From contig NZ_CP051682.1 in the NCBI RefSeq assembly GCF_012849215.1, forward strand, positions 2,418,001 through 2,482,000: a stretch of 64,000 nucleotides of DNA, read 5' to 3'. The DNA comes from Mucilaginibacter robiniae. Its GTDB lineage: Bacteria; Bacteroidota; Bacteroidia; Sphingobacteriales; Sphingobacteriaceae. A program made the translations under genes and the position numbers. The notes beneath the pieces were generated by a model. The model did not search any database and had not been told where the DNA came from. It saw only the letters and a list, made by a program, of their open reading frames with translations. Shown here piece by piece: positions 1 to 12,194 of the stretch. Each line of letters starts with the position of its first letter. The stretch's first letter is position 1.

Positions 1-2
1 AG

Positions 3-620
3 TTTAAAAAACATTCAGAAGAAGGTTTGCTATCGGGCCTTTCGGGTGCCGAAGTAGCTGAGCGCATGTTGAACGACCATGGCATATATAACGTACAAGT
101 GGTAGCGGCCGAAGGACAACTGTCTGACCATTACAACCCGGCAAACCATACCGTAAACCTGAGTTCGGAAGTATATTATGGCCGTAGCGTGGCTGCCGCT
201 GCTGTAGCCGCACACGAGTGCGGACATGCCGTGCAACATGCCAAAGCCTACGGTTGGTTAAATTTGCGTACCGCTATTGTACCGGCCATTCAGGTGGCCT
301 CCAACATTGTGCAATGGACCTTGATGATTGGCGTTATGCTACTGATATTTTCGGGCAACCCACTCATACTGGCCATTGGTGTAGCTGCCTTGGCGCTGGT
401 TACTGTATTTAGCTTTATTACGCTACCCGTTGAGTTTGATGCCAGCCGACGTGCTTTAGCCTGGTTGGATAATAACTACAACGTAGTACAAACCCGCCAG
501 GAACATGATGAAGCTAAAGATGCCCTATGGTGGGCCGCCATGACCTACGTAGTAGCTGCATTAAGCTCATTAGCCACCCTGTTGTACTACGCCTCTCTGC
601 TGAGTGGCCGCAGGCGATAA
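3..620 (+). CDS. Zinc metallopeptidase, YugP-like (5' partial)
   Basis: The reading frame is open to the left edge (codons from base 3), so the true start lies upstream. Residues typical of the YugP/Zn_peptidase_2 family are visible: a SGLSGAEVAERML segment, then the zinc-binding HECGH motif (bases 213-227). Two or more hydrophobic stretches follow (about bases 290-430 and 540-600), giving a membrane-anchored metallopeptidase. The YugP family is annotated as membrane zinc peptidases, but the physiological substrate is not established. The gene ends just before a strong hairpin terminator. Identity is confident; function beyond peptidase fold is not. Confidence 0.85.
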   Translation, partial: FKKHSEEGLLSGLSGAEVAERMLNDHGIYNVQVVAAEGQLSDHYNPANHTVNLSSEVYYGRSVAAAAVAAHECGHAVQHAKAYGWLNLRTAIVPAIQVASNIVQWTLMIGVMLLIFSGNPLILAIGVAALALVTVFSFITLPVEFDASRRALAWLDNNYNVVQTRQEHDEAKDALWWAAMTYVVAALSSLATLLYYASLLSGRRR

Positions 621-640
621 ATTGCTATCTTAAAATAACT

Positions 641-675
641 AAAAAGCCTCACCAATTAAATTTGTGAGGCTTTTT
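641..675. terminator. Bidirectional intrinsic terminator
   Basis: A perfect 12-bp stem (AAAAAGCCTCAC / GTGAGGCTTTTT) with an AT-rich loop is flanked by A and T runs, so it can work on both strands. It separates the plus-strand peptidase (ends 620) from the minus-strand phosphatase (ends 722). Confidence 0.85.
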
Positions 676-721
676 GCTGGAGTAGTTTTTTTTTAAAGTA
701 TGTATAATAAGGTTAGCTATG

Positions 722-2068
722 TTACTTTATACTTTCCAAATATGCACGGCCATTCATGTTTATGCTGGCACCAATTTGGGCAAGCCGGTTCAGGTAAAAT
801 TTTCGTACCGCTATCCACTGGTAAAAGCTTCCTGTTGATGGCTGTAAGCCTATTATTTTAACCGGTCGCTCATTTAGCAAGAACTGAATCAGGTAATTGC
901 CTTTTGTATTTTTATAAAGTACCCAGGCAATATTAGCGCTTAGCGGAATAATAGCCGAAGCCTGCCAGTGTTGGTTAAAACCAATTATGTTTTTAGAGGC
1001 TACTGCAGCAGGTTCCATGCCCAACAAGGTAGCTAATGGTGATACTGTTTCGGCATGAGCAAAATGCAACTGTGCTTTAACCGGCGAACCATTCAGGTAT
1101 GCATCGGTTGTTTTAACTAAATCGGCTAATAAAGGTGCCGCTATTTTTATAGGTAAACCTAATGTATTTGTACCTGGCCCTTTTTTCAGATAATCATCAG
1201 CCTGATCGATATAAGCTAAAGTGTTCAGTTCCTGGCAAGTAAAAAGTGAAGAAAAATCAAGCTCTTTGGCGCTATATCCAGCTTCTTTGATCTCAGCAGC
1301 TAAGGAGTGCACAATAGTGGCAAAGCCGAATACATCATTTGTAAAATCAGACTGATTTTCAGTCGATAGTTTTTTCAGGAAATCAGCTTTAAAAAATCGG
1401 GCTGCAACCTGCTGGTTAATGGCGCTGATATGCTTTTGCTGTTGTAGCAGCACCATAGCTTTAGTCCAGTTGCCTTTATCTTCAAACTGCGTGTATGCGG
1501 GTGATAAATCATAAAAGCGTAGAGTCGTATCATTAACACCTCGCTCTACTACATCAGCCTGAGGTGCCAGCGTTTGCAGCTGTTGCACAAAAGCATCAGC
1601 GCTTTGCCGGGTACGCACTTCTTTGGTAATGGTAACGTCTACTTTGGGCTTACCGGCAAATACCGGTTGATTAGCGGCATATAAGCGCCCTGCAATACCC
1701 TGTAACTCAGCCCGACCTTCGGCCGATATGGATTTGGTTTTTCCTTTTTCTACCTTTTGTAGCGCCATTACCATGCGTTTTAACTGTAATCCGGTAGGCG
1801 TAAGTGCCTGACTACTATCCGCTTGCTGTAATAGCCGATAAGCATAAGATGATTCAGGACTTTTAGTTAAATGCCTGGCCCCATGTCGCCCCACATAATT
1901 AATAAACACCGGCTCATAACCTGTAGGTATTTTGACTGCTGCACCTTTTGGTGCATGGTATAGGGTTTTGGTGCCTAAAAAGTTGCTATCACAGGTTTGG
2001 GCATAGCTAACAGACACCCAGCTGATGCCTGCAAATAGTATTGAAAAAGCTTTTAAACGTAAAGACAT
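722..2068 (-). CDS. Histidine acid phosphatase, MINPP/phytase-like
   Basis: Secreted phosphomonoesterase of the histidine phosphatase superfamily, branch 2. A signal peptide (MSLRLKAFSILFAG..SYAQ) is followed by the phosphohistidine motif RHGARH at residues 61-66. The proton-donor motif is HAE at residues 338-340, not HD; HAE is characteristic of multiple inositol-polyphosphate phosphatases. The start at 2068 is chosen because it gives a clean signal peptide; the frame is open up to 2155, but that extension covers a degenerate interspersed repeat. It is the last gene of the minus-strand group with the beta-helix lipoprotein and TonB receptor, so a role in phytate or other organic phosphate use is inferred. 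Substrate not proven. Confidence 0.8.
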   Translation of the reverse strand: MSLRLKAFSILFAGISWVSVSYAQTCDSNFLGTKTLYHAPKGAAVKIPTGYEPVFINYVGRHGARHLTKSPESSYAYRLLQQADSSQALTPTGLQLKRMVMALQKVEKGKTKSISAEGRAELQGIAGRLYAANQPVFAGKPKVDVTITKEVRTRQSADAFVQQLQTLAPQADVVERGVNDTTLRFYDLSPAYTQFEDKGNWTKAMVLLQQQKHISAINQQVAARFFKADFLKKLSTENQSDFTNDVFGFATIVHSLAAEIKEAGYSAKELDFSSLFTCQELNTLAYIDQADDYLKKGPGTNTLGLPIKIAAPLLADLVKTTDAYLNGSPVKAQLHFAHAETVSPLATLLGMEPAAVASKNIIGFNQHWQASAIIPLSANIAWVLYKNTKGNYLIQFLLNERPVKIIGLQPSTGSFYQWIAVRKFYLNRLAQIGASINMNGRAYLESIK

Positions 2069-2077
2069 ATATGTACA

Positions 2078-2140
2078 GATATGCCATTGCGAGGTGCAAA
2101 GCCATCTTTCAAGAACAGCTTCACACCCCGCAATAGCTAA
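2078..2140. repeat. Degenerate interspersed repeat copy (TTGCGAGG type)
   Basis: Between the phosphatase and lipoprotein genes the sequence reads GCCATTGCGAGGTGCAAAG followed by a partner arm ending CCCGCAATAGC. It resembles, in opposite orientation, the GAGATTGCCACG...CGCAATGACG element at 19969-19998. This looks like a decayed copy of a short palindromic repeat; only two or three copies are visible here. Confidence 0.4.
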
Positions 2141-2171
2141 GGGGAAAAGGAACAAATACTAAGATTATAAA

Positions 2172-3572
2172 TTAATGCTGATTACCAGTACCATCAATCT
2201 GGTAAGCACCCAAATCTTTACCCGGTAAGGTAACGGTAGATGCCGTTGTACCAGTTGAGGTTACTAAATTCAGCGGTTGAAAATCAGTTTTACCTTTGCT
2301 GGCAGCAGGCGAAGTAGCTTGTAACCGGAAGTTGCCACTACCTACTTGTACCAGGTAAGCAGGTTGCTGTGCAGCCGTTAACGGGCCCGGACTGGCCGTA
2401 TAGTTAAACTGATTCAGATCGTAGCTGATGAACAGCGGATTATTTTGCTGCGGCGTGGTTGAATGCACATCATTGCTTTGAAAGGTAGCTACACCATCGG
2501 CCGAGTTGAATTGGTTGACTATAGTCTGTGAGTTACCATAGTAAAGCTGGCTGTTGTATTTGATATTGGTGATATCTGCATCATTCACCAAACGCAAACC
2601 GAAGCGGCAGTTCACAATCAGGTTATTGTAAACTAATCCGCGGGCTGCTTTTTCATAGTTGATAGAGCCGCCCCGGCCTGATTTAGTTTGCCGGAAACCG
2701 CAGTTCACAATTGTGTTGTTGTACATGTTTACGTTACACTGCGTACCCGAGCTACCTGAATCTGATGCTTTAATGGCATTGGTAGCAGCCCCAATCATCA
2801 TATTATAGGCAATATCACCCACGGTACCGCTCTTCATATTGAAAAACTCACCGCCCGATTGGCCGCATATCTCAAAGGTGTTGCGCATAATGTTGATTTT
2901 GCCGCCTACCACGCGTATAGCATCATCTTTACTGCCAAACACCCATGAATCTTCCAGCACAAAATTCTTTTTAATATTACCAAAGTAAATGATGTAGCGA
3001 GGATCGCCTTGTGCATAAATAGCCGGATCGTTGTTGGGGCCCGATGGGCCGCCTGCCATTTCCAGGTGTGTCCATTTGATAATCAAATCGCCACCGGCAG
3101 GAGCAGCATTGGTAGCGGTAGCTGTGGTTGAGGGCGAACAAACAATACCTCCCCAATAGCCCTGAAAAACGTTGGCGTAGTTGCCAGCGGCAGCCTGGCT
3201 GTGTAAATCGGTATAGTTACCTACAGTGATATAGTTAGGATTATCTTTTGTACCTAAGCTGATAAAGGTACCATGCACAATAATTTCGGGGCTGGTTTGG
3301 TAAGTTTTACCATCACCAATGGCAATCAGCTTAACGCCGGCCTGCATTTGCAGCGTATCGCCATCATTAACCGTAATGTCCGATTTAAAATAATAAGTTT
3401 TGCCACTCAGCAAGGTACCTTTGATGGTGCCTTTTAAAGTGTCGGAAGTGATAGGGGCACTTATCTGCAACACCGGCTGCGATAAGGTTAACAGTTCGGT
3501 TTTGTGGCAGGCACTCAGCAGTACTACGCTGCCTAAAGCTAGCAGCAGGAATAAATTTTTTATCAGTTTCAT
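2172..3572 (-). CDS. Lipoprotein with right-handed beta-helix domain
   Basis: The N-terminus is a lipoprotein signal with lipobox LSAC (lipidated Cys22). The body has the pattern of a parallel beta-helix: repeated short strands with Asn/Gly turns, for example FVLEDSWVFG, NIMRNTFEICG, NMYNNTIVNCG and GLVYNNLIVNC. Such folds occur in pectate lyases and other polysaccharide-binding or cleaving proteins, but no catalytic signature is recognised. It starts 14 bases after the TonB receptor stop, so the two are almost certainly co-transcribed and it may be the receptor's accessory lipoprotein in place of a SusD. Function unknown. Confidence 0.7.
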   Translation of the reverse strand: MKLIKNLFLLLALGSVVLLSACHKTELLTLSQPVLQISAPITSDTLKGTIKGTLLSGKTYYFKSDITVNDGDTLQMQAGVKLIAIGDGKTYQTSPEIIVHGTFISLGTKDNPNYITVGNYTDLHSQAAAGNYANVFQGYWGGIVCSPSTTATATNAAPAGGDLIIKWTHLEMAGGPSGPNNDPAIYAQGDPRYIIYFGNIKKNFVLEDSWVFGSKDDAIRVVGGKINIMRNTFEICGQSGGEFFNMKSGTVGDIAYNMMIGAATNAIKASDSGSSGTQCNVNMYNNTIVNCGFRQTKSGRGGSINYEKAARGLVYNNLIVNCRFGLRLVNDADITNIKYNSQLYYGNSQTIVNQFNSADGVATFQSNDVHSTTPQQNNPLFISYDLNQFNYTASPGPLTAAQQPAYLVQVGSGNFRLQATSPAASKGKTDFQPLNLVTSTGTTASTVTLPGKDLGAYQIDGTGNQH

Positions 3573-3586
3573 AACTATGAATGAAT

Positions 3587-6397
3587 TTATAGTCGGTAAC
3601 GTAAACCTAAAATGTAATAGCGGTTGTAAGTATCGCGCCGCACAAAAGCGTTAGCGCCATCTTTCTGGTATTCGGATGATACAGTTACACTTTCCGGATA
3701 GGGGCGATGCAACTCCAGTTGAAATGGCGTATTCAGCAGGTTGGTTGCTTTGAAGTAGCCATACAGGTTTTTGAACAATCGTTTTTCGGTTGAAAAATCG
3801 AGCGTGGTAAAGGCTTTCTGCCAAACATCATTATCCAGGTAACCTGATACCAAGTTGATGCGCGAGCCAGTGTACACCAACGATAACTGGGCATCTAACC
3901 CGGCTTTACCATCCTTATACAGAAACGAGAAGTTACCGATATTTTTAGATTGGCCTTGCAATGGACGAGTTTGATTTTCCAAACGATTGGTTACATAACC
4001 ACTGGCATCACGATAGTTTACCAGTTTGGATGTGGTAATTTTTGAATCGGTGTAGGTGTAATTAAGCCTTACGCCAAAATTGTGAATGTACTTAACTGCT
4101 TCAAACTCGAAACCATAGTTGTGTGCTGTACCAAAGTTTTGCGGTTGTAACACCAGGTTGGTACTGGTACTACCGGCACTGCTGGTTTGACGCACTAAAG
4201 CATTTTCAATAGGGTTATTGATGGCTTTGTAAAATACACCTACCAATAACTCATCCAATCCTTTCGGGAACAGCTCATAACGAAAGTCGAAGTTTTCTGC
4301 CGTGGTACGTTTCAGGGTAGGGTTACCAATCTCTTTGTAATCGGCATCCGGATCGCCAGAAGTATGCGGGATAATTTCGTAAAAATTAGGGCGACTAATA
4401 GCTGAATAGTACGATAAGCGCAGGTTCTGATGTTCTGACAACATGTACTTAAAGTTCAGACTAGGCAAAAAATCATAATAATGGTTGGTACCATTTTTAC
4501 CTACCGTTTGCTCGGAAGCATTGGTTTCATAAGCCTGGCTGGTATGCTCATACCGTAAGCCGCCAATGGTTTGCAACTTGCCCGCTGTAAACTTAAACTG
4601 TCCGTAAGCAGCACCTATCTTTTCATTGAAGGTGTAGTTCAAGGCATCTGAGGCACGGCCTTGCCCATTGAACACCGCAAAAGTGTTGTTATCGATATTA
4701 CCGTTAAAGGTTTGAGCAGTATTGCCGCTTACTCGTAAGTCGTACTCATCATAATCACTGTGGCGGTCTTTATCGCGGTACATACCACCAGCGCTAAATT
4801 CTACTTTGGTATTAAATAGCTGCGGCGAGTAAATCAGGTTCAGGTACCCTGTTTTATCCTGATCGGAGTTGTAAGTAAAAATGCGGGTTTGCGATTGCAG
4901 TGCATCAAACGTAGTTGAAGCTTGCACTACCGAACCATCCGGTTGTATGTTTCTACCCGTATTCAGGTTTAAATCAGCACGATCAGGTTCATTCGCGGTG
5001 GCTTTTGAATATACTGCCATCCAGTTAGCGCGGAAGTTAGGCAACAGGGTATGATCGCCTTGCAGGTTTACGTTATAAACTTGCTGTATAGTACGGTCGC
5101 TACGGTAACCTTCATTTACCCGGCCGTTACCTACAGCCGTACGGCCTAAAAAGCTGGTATCGGAAGCAAAACGATATTCATTTTGCATAAGGTTGATATA
5201 AGAACCATTTAGGGTAAGCTTATTGGCCGAATCAAAACGATAATCCAATTTACCAATTAACGCAGCACGCTGCTGCTGGATGTTGTAGGTACGGCTTTGA
5301 AAATCTTGTACGCTAGGTTCATTATTGGTTAGGTTAACCTGCGTATTAAAAAACACGCCATTGGTTTGCCGGTAGGTGTTCTGGTAACTACCCGCCAGTA
5401 AAGCACCCAGTTTTTTATCATGGCTGCGGCCACCTACGCTAAAGCCTAATATACTAGCCAGCGGTACATTTTTAGTACTGTAGTGGAAAGGGCTATTCGG
5501 AAAATCGTTCATGGTGGCAATATAATCTGCCCCATTTTTAATACGTGGCGAACGTGACAAGCTAGCGCTATGATCGAATTGCGTAAAGCCGTGATTGAAA
5601 AAGTTTTCAGCATAGCCCGTACCCACATTCAGGTGCAGAGCAAAATCGTCAGGAGCATCTTTCAACGCTAAATTGATAGCCCCACCAATCGCATCACCTT
5701 CCTGACTGGCGGTTAATGATTTGTAAACTTCCAAACGGTCAACAATATCGGCCGGGAAAATATCCAGCGGTACATAACGGTTAGTATTGCTGGGGCTAGG
5801 TATTTTGATACCGTTAATCAATGTGTATTGATAACGTTGCGGCATCCCGCGAATAATGGCATATTGCGCCTCGCCATTGTTGCTGCGCTCAACTGATACA
5901 CCGCTAATACGCTGGGTAACGTTGGCAATGGTAATATCTGGCGATATTTCTATACTGTGTGACGATACAGCATTAACCACTTGGTCGGCCCGCTGCTCAA
6001 TGCGCCTGGCAGCCTGATCTGACCCCTGGTTGGTACGACTTTTTATATTTACCTCGCTTAAATCATGTCCCTTGCCTTGTAAAGCCAGGTTAATGATAAT
6101 CAAAGGTACGTTACCGTTTATTTCTGTATGCTTTTCTTCATCCTTGTAGCCTACATATTTAGCTTCTACCTCGTAGCTGCCTGCGGTAACATTCTTGAAG
6201 CTATAGCTGCCATCCAGCCCTACGCTGGTGGATATTTTGGTATGCATGCGCTCATTTTTTAAGGTAACAGTAGCTCCGGGGAGGGGCTCACCATTCTTCT
6301 GGTCGGTTACTATACCTTTTATGGCACTGTCGGCAAAAGCCTGTGCAGTATAGCAAAACAATAGCGTAAAAATTAACAGGGAGTACAGGTTCTTCAT
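3587..6397 (-). CDS. TonB-dependent outer membrane receptor
   Basis: The signal peptide (MKNLYSLLIFTLLF..AQAFA) is followed by a carboxypeptidase-like regulatory domain (about residues 22-110, GIVTDQKNGEPLPGATV). Then come a plug domain (about 130-260, with RISGVSVERS and IRGMPQRYQYTLINGI) and a long beta-barrel ending in RYYILGLRYRL. The frame is open to 6418, but 6397 gives the better signal peptide. No SusD partner is adjacent; instead the next genes are the beta-helix lipoprotein and the MINPP-like phosphatase. The receptor probably imports a phosphorylated or other bulky ligand processed by these neighbours (inference). Family assignment is firm; ligand unknown. Confidence 0.9.
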   Translation of the reverse strand: MKNLYSLLIFTLLFCYTAQAFADSAIKGIVTDQKNGEPLPGATVTLKNERMHTKISTSVGLDGSYSFKNVTAGSYEVEAKYVGYKDEEKHTEINGNVPLIIINLALQGKGHDLSEVNIKSRTNQGSDQAARRIEQRADQVVNAVSSHSIEISPDITIANVTQRISGVSVERSNNGEAQYAIIRGMPQRYQYTLINGIKIPSPSNTNRYVPLDIFPADIVDRLEVYKSLTASQEGDAIGGAINLALKDAPDDFALHLNVGTGYAENFFNHGFTQFDHSASLSRSPRIKNGADYIATMNDFPNSPFHYSTKNVPLASILGFSVGGRSHDKKLGALLAGSYQNTYRQTNGVFFNTQVNLTNNEPSVQDFQSRTYNIQQQRAALIGKLDYRFDSANKLTLNGSYINLMQNEYRFASDTSFLGRTAVGNGRVNEGYRSDRTIQQVYNVNLQGDHTLLPNFRANWMAVYSKATANEPDRADLNLNTGRNIQPDGSVVQASTTFDALQSQTRIFTYNSDQDKTGYLNLIYSPQLFNTKVEFSAGGMYRDKDRHSDYDEYDLRVSGNTAQTFNGNIDNNTFAVFNGQGRASDALNYTFNEKIGAAYGQFKFTAGKLQTIGGLRYEHTSQAYETNASEQTVGKNGTNHYYDFLPSLNFKYMLSEHQNLRLSYYSAISRPNFYEIIPHTSGDPDADYKEIGNPTLKRTTAENFDFRYELFPKGLDELLVGVFYKAINNPIENALVRQTSSAGSTSTNLVLQPQNFGTAHNYGFEFEAVKYIHNFGVRLNYTYTDSKITTSKLVNYRDASGYVTNRLENQTRPLQGQSKNIGNFSFLYKDGKAGLDAQLSLVYTGSRINLVSGYLDNDVWQKAFTTLDFSTEKRLFKNLYGYFKATNLLNTPFQLELHRPYPESVTVSSEYQKDGANAFVRRDTYNRYYILGLRYRL

Positions 6398-6568
6398 CAA
6401 TCTGCAAAGTTTCCGCAAAGTAACCCCAGCTATATAAAGCGAACATCAACCCGATATTATGCTATTGTTAAGACAATGTAACAACATCTTGCACACCTTG
6501 AGTAATTCTGACACCTATTGAATGCTATCATTTCTCTTACATTTATACTTCACCAGCATACTTGTTTT

Positions 6569-6600
6569 TTTGATTAACTGTACAGAAAACACTTAATTTG
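6569..6600 (+). promoter_or_regulatory. Candidate promoter for GH2 gene
   Basis: TTTG at 6569-6572, a 20-base spacer, then TTAATTTG at 6593-6600 (one mismatch to the Bacteroidota -7 consensus TAnnTTTG). It lies 66 bases before the GH2 start in the 269-base divergent region between the TonB receptor and GH2. No other clear signal was found in that region. Confidence 0.45.
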
Positions 6601-6666
6601 TAACAAACACCTATTGTAAACTATAGCAGGTTTCAACATCTGCTGCTTATTTAACCTTGTACGCTT

Positions 6667-9084
6667 ATGCCTCGTAGTAAACCTTTACTTGTTTTAGTAT
6701 TGCTGGCAGTGGTATGTCACACTGCATTTGGCCAATCGGTTAACGGCCGTACCGATTTTGATAATGGCTGGAAATTTTACCTGGGCGATAACAAGCAAGC
6801 CAAAGAGGCAGGCTATAACGATGCCCGCTGGCGTTCGCTTAACCTACCACACGATTGGAGTATTGAAGGCAAGTTCAGTAAGGATAACCCGGCGGGTATA
6901 GGCGGCGGAGCACTGCCTGGTGGCATAGGCTGGTATCGTAAAACTTTTACTGTACCGCAAACGGCACAAGGCAAACAGGTTTATATTGATTTTGACGGCG
7001 TGTACCGCAACAGCGAAGTATGGATTAACGGCCACTTGCTGGGCAAGCGGCCTAACGGTTACATATCCTTCCGGTACGAGCTTACGCCTTACCTTAACTG
7101 GGGCAAAAGTAACGTGATTGCCGTACAGGTTGATAACGCTGATCAGCCTAACTCGCGCTGGTACTCTGGTTCGGGTATTTACCGCAATGTTTGGCTGGTA
7201 ACCAAAAGTAAAATAGCCGTTGCCCACTGGGGAACTTACGTAACCACGCCCGAGGTAAGCTCGGCACAGGCTACGGTTAAGTTACAAACCCGTTTACGCA
7301 ATACTACAGGTAGCAGTCAGCAAGTAACTATTACTTCCAAAATTGTGGATGCGAGTGGTAAAACTATTACCGCGGCTGGCACTACAAGTTACCGCTTGCC
7401 CGATACGCTTACTACTTATGAGCAGCAATTTACAGTAAAGCAGCCGCAGTTATGGTCAGTTAATCGCCCATACCTGTACCAAGTTGTAACACAGGTTAAG
7501 CAAAATAATCAGGTGCTGGATACCTATACTACACCTTTGGGCATTCGCTACTTTGATTTTGATGCCGACAAAGGTTTTTCGCTAAATGGCCAGCACCTTA
7601 AAATTTTAGGCGTTTGCGATCACCATGACTTAGGTTGCCTGGGCGCTGCCTTGAACACCCGCGCCTTAGAACGCCAACTGGAAATTTTAAAAGGAATGGG
7701 CTGCAATGCTATTCGTACCTCCCATAACCCGCCAGCGCCTGAGCTATTGGATTTGTGCGACAAAATGGGTTTTATTGTAATGGATGAAGCTTTTGATACC
7801 TGGGAAAAGCCGAAAGAGAAATACGATTATCATCAGTTCTTCAAAGCCTGGCACAAACGCGATTTGGAAGACCAGTTGCTGCGCGATCGTAACCACCCTT
7901 CTGTATTTATCTGGAGCATTGGCAATGAAATTCCGGAACAACGCGACAGCAGTGCTTTGCGCATTGCCGCTGATTTGGCCCATATTGTACATAGCTTAGA
8001 TAAAACCCGACCAATCACCACCGCCAACAATAATCCTGATACAGGTAATAAAATTATCAGCTCAGGTGCTATTGATTTGGTTGGTTATAACTACCATCAT
8101 CAGGATTATGCTGCTTTTCATCAGCGGTATCCGGGTAAAAGGTTTATTGGTACCGAAACTACCTCGGCACTGGAAACCCGCGGACATTATGATATGCCAT
8201 CAGACAGCATACGTCGTTGGCCGGAAAGATGGGATCAATCTTTGAAAAAAGGCAATGCAGATAATACCGTATCGGCTTATGATAATGTATCTGCCCCTTG
8301 GGGATCAACGCATGAGGAAAGCTGGAAAGAGATCAAGAAATATGATTTTCTGTCGGGCATGTTCATTTGGACAGGTTTTGACTACCTGGGCGAACCTACG
8401 CCTTATGAATGGCCTTCACGCAGTTCATACTTTGGTATTATCGACTTAGCAGGTTTCCCGAAGGATATTTATTATATGTACCAAAGCGAGTGGACCAACA
8501 AACCCGTACTGCATATCTTGCCGCACTGGAACTGGCAGCCCGGCAAAACGGTAGATGTATGGGCTTATTACAACCATGCCGACGAGGTAGAGCTATACCT
8601 GAATGGCAAATCATTAGGTGTTAAAAAGAAACAAGGCGAGGATTTGCACGTCATGTGGCGGGTAAAATATGAACCCGGTACACTAAAAGCCGTATCACGC
8701 AAAAATGGTAAAACAGTGCTTACCCAAACCATTCAAACCGCCGGTAAAGCTGCCCGAATTGAATTGGTAGCCGATCATAAAGTTATTAAGGCCGATAGCC
8801 GGGATTTATCTTTTGTAACTGTGCGCATATTGGATGCAAATGGTAACCTGGTACCTGATGCTAATAACCTGATTCATTTCAAAGTGGCAGGCAACGGGCA
8901 TATTGCAGGTATGGATAATGGCAGTGAAACCAGTATGGAATCTTTCCAAGGCAATCAGCACTCGGTATTTAATGGTTTGGGGCTAGCCGTACTGCAAGCC
9001 GGAACGGCAGCCGGTACGCTTACGTTGACTGCTAGTGCCGATGGTTTACCATCCGCCAACGTGGCCATAAAAATGCAGAAGTAG
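6667..9084 (+). CDS. Glycoside hydrolase family 2 (beta-galactosidase type)
   Basis: Secreted exo-glycosidase (signal peptide MPRSKPLLVLVLLAVVCHTAFG). Domain order is typical of GH2: jelly-roll sugar-binding domain (about 30-180), immunoglobulin-like domain (about 185-295), and TIM barrel. The acid/base sits in WSIGNE (Glu421) and the nucleophile in IGTET (Glu497). A DUF4982-like domain follows (about 615-690, VDVWAYYNHADEVELYLNG), then a C-terminal Ig-like domain. This architecture is common in Bacteroidota beta-galactosidases and related enzymes; sugar specificity cannot be read from sequence. It is divergent from the TonB receptor and ends before a hairpin at 9122-9169. Confidence 0.88.
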   Translation: MPRSKPLLVLVLLAVVCHTAFGQSVNGRTDFDNGWKFYLGDNKQAKEAGYNDARWRSLNLPHDWSIEGKFSKDNPAGIGGGALPGGIGWYRKTFTVPQTAQGKQVYIDFDGVYRNSEVWINGHLLGKRPNGYISFRYELTPYLNWGKSNVIAVQVDNADQPNSRWYSGSGIYRNVWLVTKSKIAVAHWGTYVTTPEVSSAQATVKLQTRLRNTTGSSQQVTITSKIVDASGKTITAAGTTSYRLPDTLTTYEQQFTVKQPQLWSVNRPYLYQVVTQVKQNNQVLDTYTTPLGIRYFDFDADKGFSLNGQHLKILGVCDHHDLGCLGAALNTRALERQLEILKGMGCNAIRTSHNPPAPELLDLCDKMGFIVMDEAFDTWEKPKEKYDYHQFFKAWHKRDLEDQLLRDRNHPSVFIWSIGNEIPEQRDSSALRIAADLAHIVHSLDKTRPITTANNNPDTGNKIISSGAIDLVGYNYHHQDYAAFHQRYPGKRFIGTETTSALETRGHYDMPSDSIRRWPERWDQSLKKGNADNTVSAYDNVSAPWGSTHEESWKEIKKYDFLSGMFIWTGFDYLGEPTPYEWPSRSSYFGIIDLAGFPKDIYYMYQSEWTNKPVLHILPHWNWQPGKTVDVWAYYNHADEVELYLNGKSLGVKKKQGEDLHVMWRVKYEPGTLKAVSRKNGKTVLTQTIQTAGKAARIELVADHKVIKADSRDLSFVTVRILDANGNLVPDANNLIHFKVAGNGHIAGMDNGSETSMESFQGNQHSVFNGLGLAVLQAGTAAGTLTLTASADGLPSANVAIKMQK

Positions 9085-9121
9085 CCTTTAGCCGTGCCGT
9101 TCGGGCACTTACTTAATAGGT

Positions 9122-9169
9122 AATAGCCCTGGTTAAACTTTGATTCATCTAAGTTCAACTAGGGCTATT
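9122..9169 (+). terminator. Probable terminator hairpin after GH2
   Basis: AATAGCCCT (9122-9130) pairs with AGGGCTATT (9161-9169), extended inward by GTT/AAC and AACTT/AAGTT with single mismatches. The T-tract is weak (GCTTTAG), so efficiency is uncertain. Confidence 0.55.
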
Positions 9170-9243
9170 GCTTTAGATGGATACTGGCTAAAGTTGCAAT
9201 ACTCGTAACCTTTATGTTACTTTGGCTGCAATTTGAGCATTAT

Positions 9244-10503
9244 ATGAAACTGATCCGGAGCCTGTCCTTTTGTTTTGCCCTACTGATTTTGGCACAACAC
9301 CAGGTATGGGCACAGGCCGATAAAAACGTTTCAATTCCGCAACTGCTTACCGGCAAAAAGGGGGTGGCCGATACTACGGCTAATGTTACCCAGCCTGCAT
9401 CCAACCAAAAAGATTTGCCTGATGTTTTCCGGGCGTTGCTGCATTTGAAGCCAGCAGCCGAAAATGATTCCGTCACGTCAAAACCTGAAATCTCGGTAGT
9501 GCCGGCTATTGGCTATACGCTAGTTTCCAGGCTGGCGGCGGTACTTTCGGGCAATGTGGCCTTTCGTACAGGTCCGCAGGCGCATATTTCAACTATTGTA
9601 GCCAGTGCCTCTTATACCCAAAACAAGCAGTTTATTATTCCCATCCTGTCCAATATCTGGACAAAAAACAACACGTTTGATTTTGTAGGCGATTTCCGCT
9701 ATTACCAGTATCCTGAAAGCACCTACGGTTTAGGCAGCGGTTCTAACATCCACGATGAAGACCCCATGAACTTTTCATTTGTGCGCTTTTATGAAACCGC
9801 TTACCGACACATAACAGCCAACTGGTATGCTGGCTTAGGTTACGCTTTGGATAATTATTGGAACTTATCGCACCAAGGCCCGCTTAACGGTGCCTTTTCA
9901 GATTACGAAGCTTATGGCACTTCACGCCATACTATAGCTTCGGGTTTTACTCTGAATGTACTGCATGATTCGCGCGATAATTCTATCAATCCGCTTAGAG
10001 GTTGGTATGGCAGCATACAATATCGTACCAACACTCCAATTTTAGGAAGTACCAGTACGTGGTCATCCTTAATTATTGATTATCGTAAGTATGTACGCTT
10101 TCCGGCTCAGTCAGACAATGTACTGGCTTTCTGGTCGTACAACTGGTTTATTCTGAGTGGCAAGCCGCCTTACCTGAACCTGCCCAGTAATTCATGGGAC
10201 CCGAACTCGGCCACAGGGCGCGGGTACATTCAGGGGCGTTTCAGAGGAGCACAGATGGTATATGCTGAAACCGAATACCGTTTTAAAATTACCCGTAATG
10301 GTTTAATTGGCGGCGTACTGTTTGCCAATGCCGAAAGCTTATCGGCTCAGCCGCATACGCGTTTGCAAGCTATACAGCCAGCCTTCGGCCCCGGTTTGCG
10401 CCTTAAACTGAACAAAACATCACGCACCAACGTAGCGGTTGATTATGGTTTTGGCCGCCAGGGCTCACGCGGATTATTTATCGATGTAGGCGAAATTTTT
10501 TAA
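9244..10503 (+). CDS. Omp85/BamA-TamA-type outer membrane beta-barrel protein
   Basis: The signal peptide (MKLIRSLSFCFALLILAQHQVWA) is followed by a barrel-forming protein with the D15/Omp85 surface-antigen hallmark: LHDSRDNSINPLRGWYGS near the middle and a C-terminal strand ending in Phe (GLFIDVGEIF). At about 420 residues it has no room for POTRA repeats, so it is a barrel-only member rather than BamA itself. The frame is open from 9214, but the start at 9244 gives the clean signal peptide. Possible roles are outer membrane transport or lipid/protein handling; no partner gene is adjacent. Function unknown. Confidence 0.75.
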   Translation: MKLIRSLSFCFALLILAQHQVWAQADKNVSIPQLLTGKKGVADTTANVTQPASNQKDLPDVFRALLHLKPAAENDSVTSKPEISVVPAIGYTLVSRLAAVLSGNVAFRTGPQAHISTIVASASYTQNKQFIIPILSNIWTKNNTFDFVGDFRYYQYPESTYGLGSGSNIHDEDPMNFSFVRFYETAYRHITANWYAGLGYALDNYWNLSHQGPLNGAFSDYEAYGTSRHTIASGFTLNVLHDSRDNSINPLRGWYGSIQYRTNTPILGSTSTWSSLIIDYRKYVRFPAQSDNVLAFWSYNWFILSGKPPYLNLPSNSWDPNSATGRGYIQGRFRGAQMVYAETEYRFKITRNGLIGGVLFANAESLSAQPHTRLQAIQPAFGPGLRLKLNKTSRTNVAVDYGFGRQGSRGLFIDVGEIF

Positions 10504-10567
10504 GTTCAGGCTTTAGCTATTCTATATTTTATGAAGCTGGTTACCTTTTTAAAATATATATTGGGCT

Positions 10568-11428
10568 ATGAAAGTAAAAGAAATATTAACCGAAACGCTG
10601 CTTATTGTATTCGGAATACTATCAGCCGCCTTTGGTTTAAAAGGCTTTTTATTGTCAAGCCATTTCATTGATGGCGGGGTTACCGGTATATCCATGCTGA
10701 TTTCTGATATTACCGGTAGTTCTATTTCTATCTGGCTTTTAATCATTAATCTGCCCTTCATTTTTTTAGCATACCGGCAGCAAGGGATGGCGTTTGCCAT
10801 TAAAGGAGCCCTCGCTATTGCAGGCTTATCTTTATGCGTTGCTTTTGTTCATTTTCCAGATGTTACGCACGATAAACTATTAACAGCGGTATTTGGCGGC
10901 TTTTTTATTGGGGTAGGCATTGGCTTGGCTATACGCGGCGGTGCCGTGCTGGATGGTACTGATATTGCCGCCCTAATGCTGAGTAAAAAAAGCCAATTGC
11001 TTAAGGTAAACGATATTATATTGCTACTTAATGTTATCGTTTTCACATTGGCAGCCTTCTTTTTAGGCATTGAATCGGCCATGTATTCAACGCTTACTTA
11101 TCTGGCCGCTTCCAAAATGATTGACTTTATTTTGAATGGTATAGAGCAGTATATCGGAGTAACTATTATATCCGTACGTAGTAAAGAAATTCAAGATTTT
11201 ATTCAAAATAACATGAAACGTGGCGTAACCGTGTATGTGGGCCGGGGTGGTTACGGCAAAGTAGGGCACATTCAGGAAGAAAGAGATATTCTTTTTACGG
11301 TAGTAACCCGGCTGGAAATACCTACGCTGAAAGAAAAAGTTTTGAAAATTGATGCCTCTGCTTTTGTGGTACAACAAAGCATTGATGATACCACCGGCGG
11401 GCTAATGAAGCGAAAATCTGTACACTAA
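10568..11428 (+). CDS. YitT family membrane protein
   Basis: About five or six hydrophobic helices fill residues 10-195, with glycine-rich motifs such as GFFIGVGIGLAIRGGAVLDGTDI typical of DUF161 (YitT_membrane). The soluble C-terminal DUF2179 domain follows (about 200-280, RGVTVYVGRGGYGKVG..ILFTVVTRLE). Length matches the family. YitT proteins are predicted membrane transporters of unknown substrate. The gene stands alone on the plus strand and ends at a shared bidirectional terminator. Confidence 0.88.
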   Translation: MKVKEILTETLLIVFGILSAAFGLKGFLLSSHFIDGGVTGISMLISDITGSSISIWLLIINLPFIFLAYRQQGMAFAIKGALAIAGLSLCVAFVHFPDVTHDKLLTAVFGGFFIGVGIGLAIRGGAVLDGTDIAALMLSKKSQLLKVNDIILLLNVIVFTLAAFFLGIESAMYSTLTYLAASKMIDFILNGIEQYIGVTIISVRSKEIQDFIQNNMKRGVTVYVGRGGYGKVGHIQEERDILFTVVTRLEIPTLKEKVLKIDASAFVVQQSIDDTTGGLMKRKSVH

Positions 11429-11459
11429 AAAAAGCCCCGCTTAATAGGCGGGGCTTTTT
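11427..11459. terminator. Bidirectional intrinsic terminator
   Basis: AAAAAGCCCCGC pairs with GCGGGGCTTTTT around a 7-base loop; strong GC stem with A and T tails on both sides. It serves the convergent yitT-like gene and the small gene ending at 11462. Confidence 0.9.
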
Positions 11460-11461
11460 CT

Positions 11462-11668
11462 TTATTGGTAAGTTTCCTGACCTTCGGTACGAGGAGCCAC
11501 TTTGTCCAGTATCTGATCACTAAACTGCTTGGCCTTATCTGTCCACTCCGGTGCTCTTTCCTGTAAGTCATCTAGTATCGATTTACCATCGGTAGCACGT
11601 TTTTTGGTAACTTGCTGAATGCCGTAGGCTACTGCTGCGCCTATAACTGCGTATTTTAGTAAACTCAT
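11462..11668 (-). CDS. Small hypothetical protein with one N-terminal hydrophobic segment
   Basis: 68 residues: a short hydrophobic, glycine/alanine-rich segment at residues 4-17 (LLKYAVIGAAVAYGIQ), then a charged helical tail with DDLQERAPEWTDKAKQFSDQIL. The layout resembles small YtxH-type membrane-tethered stress proteins, but no diagnostic motif is present. It is bounded by a terminator downstream. No function is assigned. Confidence 0.6.
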   Translation of the reverse strand: MSLLKYAVIGAAVAYGIQQVTKKRATDGKSILDDLQERAPEWTDKAKQFSDQILDKVAPRTEGQETYQ

Positions 11669-11726
11669 GATTATATAAATTAAGTTGATGTTTAACTAGG
11701 TTAGGTGTACAAGTATAGTGCCAGTA

Positions 11727-12194
11727 TTACCATTTACTAAATGGATGTTTGGCTAAATAAACATTATAATATCGCTCATCCTCAGTTACTTCTTCGGCCA
11801 GCCATTCGGGATGTTCAAAAGCTTCGCTCTCATGCTCTAATTCCAGCTCGGCTAATAACAGGCCCTGGTTGGCTCCGGCAAACTCATCCACTTCCCAGGT
11901 TTTACCGGCTACGGTGATTTTAACCCGGGTCTTTTCTACTACAGTGCCAGAAAAATGTGCCAGCATCTCTTCGGCATCCTGCACAGGAATTTTGTATTCA
12001 TACTCCTTCCGCGAAAAACCTTCCGATTTTCCTTTAATGGTGATATAACCATTTTCACCGGCTACACGCACCCGAACTACCTTCTCGCTGCTATCTAACA
12101 AATAGCCTTGCTTGTATAAAGTACCTTCCGGCTTTTCCAACTGTTGCCAGCGGTTTTTATCTACCAAAAACTTGCGTTCAATTTCTACCCCCAT
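11727..12194 (-). CDS. CYTH domain protein (triphosphate tunnel metalloenzyme)
   Basis: 155 residues with the family-defining N-terminal ExExK motif (EIERK, residues 4-8), followed by alternating acidic and basic strands (VRVRVAG, TIKGKSEG, KTRVKITVAG, WEVDEF, LAELELEHE) that form the tunnel. CYTH enzymes hydrolyse inorganic triphosphate or related triphosphates with divalent metals. The start codon overlaps the stop of the upstream CHAD gene by one base (TAATG), implying translational coupling. CYTH and CHAD domains often occur together, supporting a polyphosphate-related role. Confidence 0.85.
   Translation of the reverse strand: MGVEIERKFLVDKNRWQQLEKPEGTLYKQGYLLDSSEKVVRVRVAGENGYITIKGKSEGFSRKEYEYKIPVQDAEEMLAHFSGTVVEKTRVKITVAGKTWEVDEFAGANQGLLLAELELEHESEAFEHPEWLAEEVTEDERYYNVYLAKHPFSKW

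Follow-up and report, generated by a model that had tools for sequence, protein, structure and literature searches.

The locus and its genes

The DNA considered here, called the window below, is a stretch of 64,000 nucleotides from Mucilaginibacter robiniae (contig NZ_CP051682.1, positions 2,418,001 to 2,482,000). Within its first 6.4 kb, three genes follow one another on the minus strand, encoding a TonB-dependent receptor, a lipoprotein and a secreted histidine phosphatase, and open reading frames and Pfam matches confirm this arrangement, which a sequence-only reading of the same DNA had reported. We hypothesize, with a probability of roughly 0.7, that the trio serves to acquire an organic phosphate under phosphate starvation: the lipoprotein and the receptor would import the compound and the phosphatase would strip phosphate from it. 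The features are as follows; start codons were picked by eye (ATG at 6397 for the receptor, 3572 for the lipoprotein and 2068 for the phosphatase).

3587..6397, minus strand: TonB-dependent receptor with Pfam barrel and plug, constant partner of the lipoprotein, without a SusC/RagA model match
2172..3572, minus strand: lipoprotein with an LSAC lipobox, right-handed parallel beta-helix in the AlphaFold2 model, proposed substrate-capturing partner of the receptor
722..2068, minus strand: secreted MINPP-like histidine phosphatase (branch 2), identified by PF00328, a match to BtMINPP and motifs
6466..6482, minus strand: Pho-box-like direct repeat with a period of 11 bp, GTTACA-TTGTC-TTAACA, lying 85 to 69 bp ahead of the receptor ATG, with two mismatches to TTAACA-N5-TTAACA

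The receptor and lipoprotein genes are separated by 14 bp. The receptor matches the Pfam models TonB_dep_Rec_b-barrel (7.5e-29) and Plug (1.2e-14) as well as two carboxypeptidase-regulatory models (CarboxypepD_reg), and scores 283.9 bits (E 2.9e-84) with NCBIfam TIGR01782, below the cut-off of 310. At E 0.1 this model and one S-layer model were the sole NCBIfam entries, and no SusC/RagA model was among them; likewise, no PDB sequence matched at E 0.001. In its own genome, the next best match to the receptor scores 55.5 bits versus 2114.6 for itself. Its immediate neighbours are the lipoprotein gene and a divergent GH2 glycosidase gene, and no SusD-like gene was found among the adjoining open reading frames by Pfam, in agreement with the earlier description of a receptor without SusD. 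No Rfam family reached its gathering threshold in positions 1-12000 of the window.

The receptor and the beta-helix lipoprotein form a fixed pair

With the single lipoprotein sequence as query, matches were obtained in 20 of 41 genomes, all from the genus of the window (1 of 17 genera), and the receptor adjoins the lipoprotein in all 30 loci of this genus-level set, our own locus included. A profile of the family (A1) matched 174 of 392 Bacteroidota genomes at E 0.001, of which only 23 (27 loci) exceeded 220 bits, the matches below this score being partial and weak; within the genus, 117 of 120 genomes matched at E 0.001, many of them weakly and in part. A scan of named genomes yielded 79 loci, including ones from Mucilaginibacter, Pedobacter, Chitinophaga, Hymenobacter, Taibaiella and Cytophaga. 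Pooling these scans and counting identical lipoprotein cores once gave 127 distinct loci, 80 of them in named records, from which the window, matches below 200 bits and L152, where the gene calls gave no lipoprotein, were left out. The receptor is encoded directly upstream (position -1) of the lipoprotein in 125 of the 127, and the two exceptions start at a contig edge (L129) or lie about 300 bp from a contig end (L138). The receptor and the lipoprotein are a fixed pair. Bacteroidota-like versions were also seen at a locus labelled Nostoc (L109) and at one labelled Candidatus Saccharibacteria (L123), whose contigs are probably contaminant or misbinned.

By sequence, the lipoprotein has no match in Pfam (E 0.1), NCBIfam or the PDB (E 1), and the four PDB matches that the A1 profile gave at E 10 were all meaningless. 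Its AlphaFold2 model, based on an alignment of 52 rows, has a mean predicted local distance difference test score (pLDDT) of 91.3, and the VIA-align neighbours of this model are right-handed parallel beta-helices, the best being the PL6 lyase 7dmk (Z 24.0 over 281 residues, root-mean-square deviation 3.6), with BT_1002 (5mqp, tied at Z 23.1), Pel9A (1ru4, Z 22.7) and many more close behind. Foldseek searched with the same model returned nothing at E < 0.001. The sequence-only reading had called this protein a carbohydrate-type beta-helix; the beta-helix is borne out by the model, whereas the carbohydrate label reflects resemblance of fold, and a fold common to many families tells no function. 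A simple lipobox pattern is present in 40 of the 52 rows and a C-terminal GN.H in 39, and the lipoprotein would be anchored in the outer membrane with a surface location. Four residues (D208, R230, K268, and R294) are invariant across the alignment and six more (E207, D216, D217, R220, E234, and K247) nearly so; these conserved charged residues (Lys, Arg, Asp, Glu), which lie in the middle coils, suggest a putative binding or active site. K247 and K268 are 21 residues apart, as are the catalytic Lys and Arg of PL6 chondroitinase B.

These charged residues, together with structural neighbours that include PL6 and PL9 lyases, the glycoside hydrolase BT_1002 and alginate epimerases, could also be expected if the lipoprotein were a lyase- or hydrolase-like enzyme that cuts a phosphorylated glycan at the cell surface, the receptor importing the pieces and the phosphatase dephosphorylating them. 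We regard such an enzyme as unlikely, since a fold in common proves no function, Foldseek gave no hit at the threshold above, and a scan of the 52 family members against Pfam at E 0.01 found a generic Beta_helix in four and no other family, the PL6/chondroitinase model included. Nor was any glycosidase or lyase found among the scanned recurring downstream clusters. As for PL6 itself, the lipoprotein has the right-handed parallel beta-helix of that family, which is not specific to it, and assignment as a PL6 enzyme is without Pfam support and was retained as a rival only.

The phosphatase is MINPP-like

The phosphatase is 448 amino acids long, begins with a signal-peptide-like sequence and matches Pfam His_Phos_2 (PF00328, 5e-13). 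Its best solved relative is the MINPP of B. thetaiotaomicron (4fdt; phmmer E 1.9e-40), aligned to residues 26-436 of the query, nearly the whole chain. The sequence-only reading had noted RHGARH and HAE when it likened the gene to inositol-polyphosphate phosphatases. RHGARH contains the RHGxR nucleophile motif, and FAHAETVSP aligns to the HAE of BtMINPP, so that the HAE proton-donor tripeptide is present in place of HD; the role of HAE in BtMinpp is described in PMC3969271. Further, LRFYD aligns to LRFFD of the 4fdt chain, and its Arg maps to R183 of BtMinpp by our own residue count, shifted by 1 on the basis of E325. The RHGXRXP fingerprint is incomplete, as the Pro that closes it in BtMinpp (PMC3969271) is Leu in the window phosphatase. 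In a set of 24 sequences, made up of the window protein and 23 distinct partners, the RHGxR motif and HAE each occur in 23 and LRFYD in 22; wherever RHGxR is present, Leu or Met takes the place of the Pro. Because of the replaced Pro, we name the protein MINPP-like within PF00328, not a proven MINPP, and an inositol polyphosphate phosphatase activity is predicted from its motifs. It is the sole PF00328 protein found in its own genome, in which no beta-propeller phytase was found. In L037, a second MINPP-like copy in a tandem arrangement (L037:17332-18699) is missing both RHGxR and HAE by pattern, and is possibly an altered or inactive enzyme.

Repeated replacement of the third gene

A phosphohydrolase-type gene lies at +1 or +2 of the lipoprotein, on the same strand, in 90 of the 127 loci, and six kinds occur: by first label, MINPP-like (23), two groups of calcineurin-like (19 and 17), beta-propeller phytase (17), small histidine-phosphatase-like (8) and EEP-like (6). 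Classes backed by Pfam matches in representatives (PF00328, PF00149, and PF02333) account for 76 of the 127, and the other 14 are histidine-phosphatase-like or EEP-like only. By comparison, the same profiles match 23 of 1039 other genes (≥150 amino acids) in the same loci, a background that includes duplicate loci and is too high if anything. The remaining 37 loci comprise 13 with only a YjiK-like propeller, 2 with only a YncE-like propeller, 16 with none of these, and 6 that are cut by a contig end.

On a quick tree of the lipoprotein (91 labelled rows including the window), which carries a long-branch warning, the phosphatase class changes at least 13 times, compared with a mean of 55.7 and a minimum of 51 after shuffling; the class therefore tracks lineage, yet it has been replaced repeatedly. 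MINPP marks one clade of 27 rows from Mucilaginibacter, Pedobacter, Chitinophaga and metagenome-assembled genomes, and appears again outside this clade in the second copy of L037 and upstream of the receptor in L201, while the beta-propeller phytase occurs in two separate branches. Within the 20-row clade of the window, itself included, a MINPP-like gene follows the lipoprotein in 16; L102 is cut by a contig end, and L096, L100 and L101 are without it. The sequence-only reading had held that a phosphatase not conserved next to the receptor in relatives would speak against a common locus and had proposed a search for the trio in other Bacteroidota genomes. The gene is kept in most of the clade and the trio recurs in relatives beyond chance, so that the proposal stands. 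We propose that the receptor and the lipoprotein serve as a platform whose phosphatase has been swapped in the course of evolution. L201 (G378), with its MINPP-like gene upstream of the receptor, also has a metallophosphatase gene downstream of the lipoprotein, and two types thus surround one pair.

It might be argued that the phosphatase has nothing to do with an orphan receptor pair and stands beside it by accident, given that 16 of the 127 loci have no recognised partner and 3 of 20 in the window's clade lack MINPP. This explanation is largely refuted by the conservation in the clade, the swap for other phosphatases and the common regulatory element described below, and its probability is negligible; the partner counts over the 127 loci and the class-change test on the tree led us to reject a phosphate locus by chance.

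The unrelated kinds of phosphatase beside a constant pair would also suit a lipoprotein that stimulates or anchors secreted phosphatases without any import of organophosphate, as considered for ElpS, a lipoprotein of inorganic phosphate (Pi) starvation that PMC2996285 ties to higher secreted phosphatase activity. Such a helper role leaves the constant TonB receptor unexplained, and the window phosphatase has a signal-peptide-like start with no lipobox before its Cys (AQTC); we consider it quite improbable.

Several other genes recur behind the pair. A PepSY_TM-like membrane protein (109-212 amino acids, one cut by a contig end) is encoded directly behind the lipoprotein in 9 of the 127 loci (L128, L130, L141, L143, L150, L156, L157, L161, and L163), followed by a metallophosphatase in 6 of the 9, and PF03929 was matched in the two that were scanned. 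An EncFtn-like (encapsulated-ferritin-type) gene lies at +2 behind MINPP in four loci (L091:11054-11371, L092, L095, and L103); the one scanned matches PF22277 at 2.9e-24. PepSY_TM-like proteins are known from siderophore reduction, and TonB receptors often serve metals. The system might therefore take up a metal (Fe, Ca, or Mg) bound to phytate or another phosphate chelator, with the phosphatase freeing the metal, and the +1 gene of L057, which is closest to siderophore receptors although below the cut-off, points the same way. Set against this are the upstream element shared with phoB-like and PhoU_div/PHO4 genes and the finding that none of the nine PepSY_TM-like genes is in a MINPP locus, and metal uptake has in our view less than one chance in ten.

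The commonest non-phosphatase partner is a YjiK-like beta-propeller, at +1 in 16 of the 127 loci and mostly without a Pfam match; examples are L189, L191, L194, L196-L200 and L202, and, judged by first residues, L248:6288-7217 in the own genome. A model from six rows (pLDDT 69.0) is a beta-propeller whose top target among the matches listed is YjiK (3qqz, TM 0.68), from which a phosphatase could not be supported. PDB searches with one representative each of the propeller, small histidine-phosphatase-like and EEP-like groups gave nothing useful.

An 11-bp direct repeat links the locus to phosphate genes

Exact hexamer repeats upstream of 110 receptors of the family number 97 at a period of 11, against 14 to 28 at periods of 8, 9, 10, 12 and 13, and the period of 11 would fit PhoB-type tandem sites. 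TTAACA is also the hexamer of Bacillus PhoP. With up to two mismatches, TTAACA-N5-TTAACA is found in 81 of the 110 receptor upstream regions and in 93 of 403 controls, and with up to one mismatch in 22 of 110 compared with 30 of 403. When restricted to -130..-55 on the strand of the gene, the counts are 36/110 versus 34/403, and in the clade of the window the element is present at -110..-55 in 17 of 20, versus 28 of 403 controls.

The own genome has 11 exact copies of TTAACA-N5-TTAACA. Three of them stand upstream of phosphate genes, at 39 to 73 bp from site start to called gene start: one precedes the best PhoB homolog, encoded at G000:C1:4406219-4406878, and the others each precede a PhoU_div gene, in one case with a PHO4 transporter gene behind it. 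These two PhoU_div genes are the only ones in the genome. Taken together, phosphate-starvation control and organophosphate acquisition are well supported by association, and regulation of the trio by PhoB is probable in view of its upstream sequence. The earlier proposal that the three genes constitute one organophosphate locus is thus strengthened by the MINPP-like gene in 16 of 20 loci of the clade, by the other phosphatase types elsewhere and by the Pho-box-like element upstream.

A second element with 11-bp periodicity, TTCAGAATTNCTNCAG, is likewise enriched, occurring with up to two mismatches in 18 of 110 receptor upstream regions and 4 of 403 controls. Examples are found in the window (6512-6497, minus strand), L037 and L208, and in several cases it is 49 to 59 bp before the start.

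Proposed mechanism and the points that weigh against it

In the model that we favour, PhoB-type control would switch the genes on from the Pho-box-like repeat, for which we observe the element itself and its association with the phoB-like and PhoU_div genes. From its anchor in the outer membrane, the beta-helix lipoprotein would bind a phosphorylated substrate and pass it to the TonB receptor, comparable to SusD for SusC; the pairing is constant, and the location, the lid role and the transport are predicted. The MINPP-like phosphatase, as its family and motifs indicate, would then remove phosphates in the periplasm, and Pi would enter the cytoplasm, probably via the PHO4-type (PiT) transporter whose PhoU_div neighbour bears an exact copy of the TTAACA box.

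As to the substrate of the window copy, we tentatively name a myo-inositol polyphosphate such as phytate, at slightly below even odds, in view of its MINPP-like partner and of the unrelated beta-propeller phytase that has joined the same pair in two other branches. Import, and phytate as its object, are presumed here; other phosphomonoesters are possible, and different esters may be the substrates in the metallophosphatase and EEP-like branches. Whether the pair is a general SusD-free platform for organophosphate import in Bacteroidota, the phosphate counterpart of SusCD, with six kinds of phosphohydrolase exchanged under one PhoB box and the beta-helix protein as substrate-binding lid, appears to us evenly balanced. 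Much soil phosphorus is organic, and a good part of it is phytate, and the model would bear on how such polyanions pass the outer membrane in Bacteroidota. If it is true, the pair offers a sequence handle for organophosphate importers that escape SusD-based searches; uncharacterised Pi-induced beta-helix lipoproteins would gain a role, and the group would have a PhoB box that can be put to the test.

A number of observations weigh against the hypothesis of a phosphate-starvation locus. In the window, the phosphatase ATG is 103 bp behind the lipoprotein, and the three genes may not share one transcript. The window's own box has two mismatches, and such sites are found at the same place in 28 of the 403 controls. 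Allowing up to one mismatch, the pattern is found 109 times in the own genome, versus 64 times for the reversed pattern, and therefore most single sites mean little; 7 of the 11 exact sites have no visible phosphate link, two of them being inside called genes, and the phoB-like regulator, at 221 bits, falls short of the NCBIfam cut-off of 270. We also count on this side an exact site 93 bp before a TonB-linked outer-membrane protein of 1065 amino acids (L255:3801-6998), which may be another member of the Pho regulon.

The partner classes call for similar caution. Since the +1/+2 genes themselves served to build the partner profiles, the list of classes is not independent. Pfam gave no match for the small histidine-phosphatase-like group, whose IRHAEKP motif was recognised by eye, while the EEP-like group matches PF03372 only below threshold. 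The four MINPP loci with an EncFtn-like gene at +2 keep a metal-phytate reading in play. In an even draw across the phylum (20 of the 27 strong loci), only 10 of 20 have a phosphohydrolase-type gene at +1/+2 (9 Pfam-backed phosphatases and 1 EEP-like), the others having only a YjiK-like propeller (7), a YncE-like propeller (1) or nothing (2), with the receptor present in all 20. Of the three loci with a YncE-like propeller or nothing, two (L204 and L207) have a divergent metallophosphatase gene on the other side of the receptor. The link to phosphatases is genuine, and less tight over the whole phylum than among those relatives that the named-genome scan favours.

Relation to known systems

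The sequence-only reading saw no obvious place for the lipoprotein in known phosphate systems. This view is not supported. Lidbury and co-workers (PMC8115612) report the lipoproteins FI and FII of Flavobacterium johnsoniae, which have a polygalacturonase-like fold, lie beside Pi-induced TonB receptors and are related to Caulobacter ElpS, and they predict organic phosphorus as the target of these systems. FI (Fjoh_3856) is encoded with the receptor Fjoh_3857 (PUSIII), and FII (Fjoh_0546) with the receptor Fjoh_0545 in a phoBR cluster (PUSIV). Similar to PUSIII and PUSIV, which are strongly induced by Pi limitation there, the window has a TonB receptor adjoining a lipoprotein of pectin-lyase-like fold, and it shares with FI and FII the lipobox and the receptor neighbour. 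By contrast, the window pair is accompanied by a MINPP-like gene and not by phoBR.

A group of FII-like proxies, not Fjoh_0546 itself, aligned with the window family by hhalign with a probability of 99.2 (E 5.8e-20, 289 columns), a score that repeats of the common fold could inflate. Given the published FI/FII and ElpS and this probable distant homology, the kind of system is already known. However, the window family is a separate branch, as the proxies score 33 to 64 bits with the window profile whereas the counted members exceed 200. The proxies came from 20 weak matches that were fetched; a receptor adjoins in 11, is absent in L173, L174, L175 and L179, and 5 were not recovered by gene calls. 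The receptor is one gene away in L183, and the order is reversed in L169, L171 and L177. In L178, PhoB-like and PhoR/PnpS-like genes are divergent from the receptor, as in the published PUSIV, and L183 is also beside a PhoB-like regulator; these regulators agree in kind with the models, and their scores, all under the cut-offs, belong with the reservations above.

ElpS of Caulobacter crescentus (CC0170) with the TonB receptor CC0171 can be likened to the window pair by description, as it is also a Pi-starvation lipoprotein beside a receptor and linked to phosphatase activity; unlike the window lipoprotein, it lies next to genes for type II secretion, the system by which it is released, according to PMC2996285. 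The PusCD systems PUSI and PUSII of Flavobacterium also consist of an outer-membrane import pair with phosphatases and are Pi-induced, but their lipoprotein is SusD-like (PMC8115612), whereas the window has a beta-helix protein in that place. With neither a SusD-like lipoprotein nor a SusC/RagA model match, the locus differs from SusCD systems and polysaccharide utilization loci.

Among the phosphatases, BtMinpp (4fdt) has RHGxR, HAE and the Arg equivalent to R183 in common with the window protein, which differs by its Leu for the Pro of RHGXRXP. Fjoh_1367/1368, a Pi-induced TonB receptor with a phytase (PMC8115612), resembles the window trio in kinds of gene, but this phytase is a beta-propeller and the adjacent locus tags leave no lipoprotein between them; in the window family, a beta-propeller phytase follows the lipoprotein in 17 of 127 loci. 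The main text of PMC8115612 makes no mention of MINPP, pf00328 or histidine acid, and that of PMC3969271 on BtMinpp none of TonB or operon. Among the papers listed by our searches of open-licence PMC main texts, we found no report of this branch with exchangeable phosphatases, of its MINPP version or of the TTAACA repeat in Bacteroidota, and none joining MINPP and a TonB receptor.

Some members of the family have phosphate-type regulatory genes nearby. In L042, a histidine kinase/response regulator pair lies directly behind the lipoprotein and is nearest to the PnpS/PhoR and RprY/PhoB models, all under cut-off. Relatives of this pair are found no more than about 5 kb away from the locus in L035 and L058, and L035 has a PhoU_div gene behind MINPP, on the same strand.

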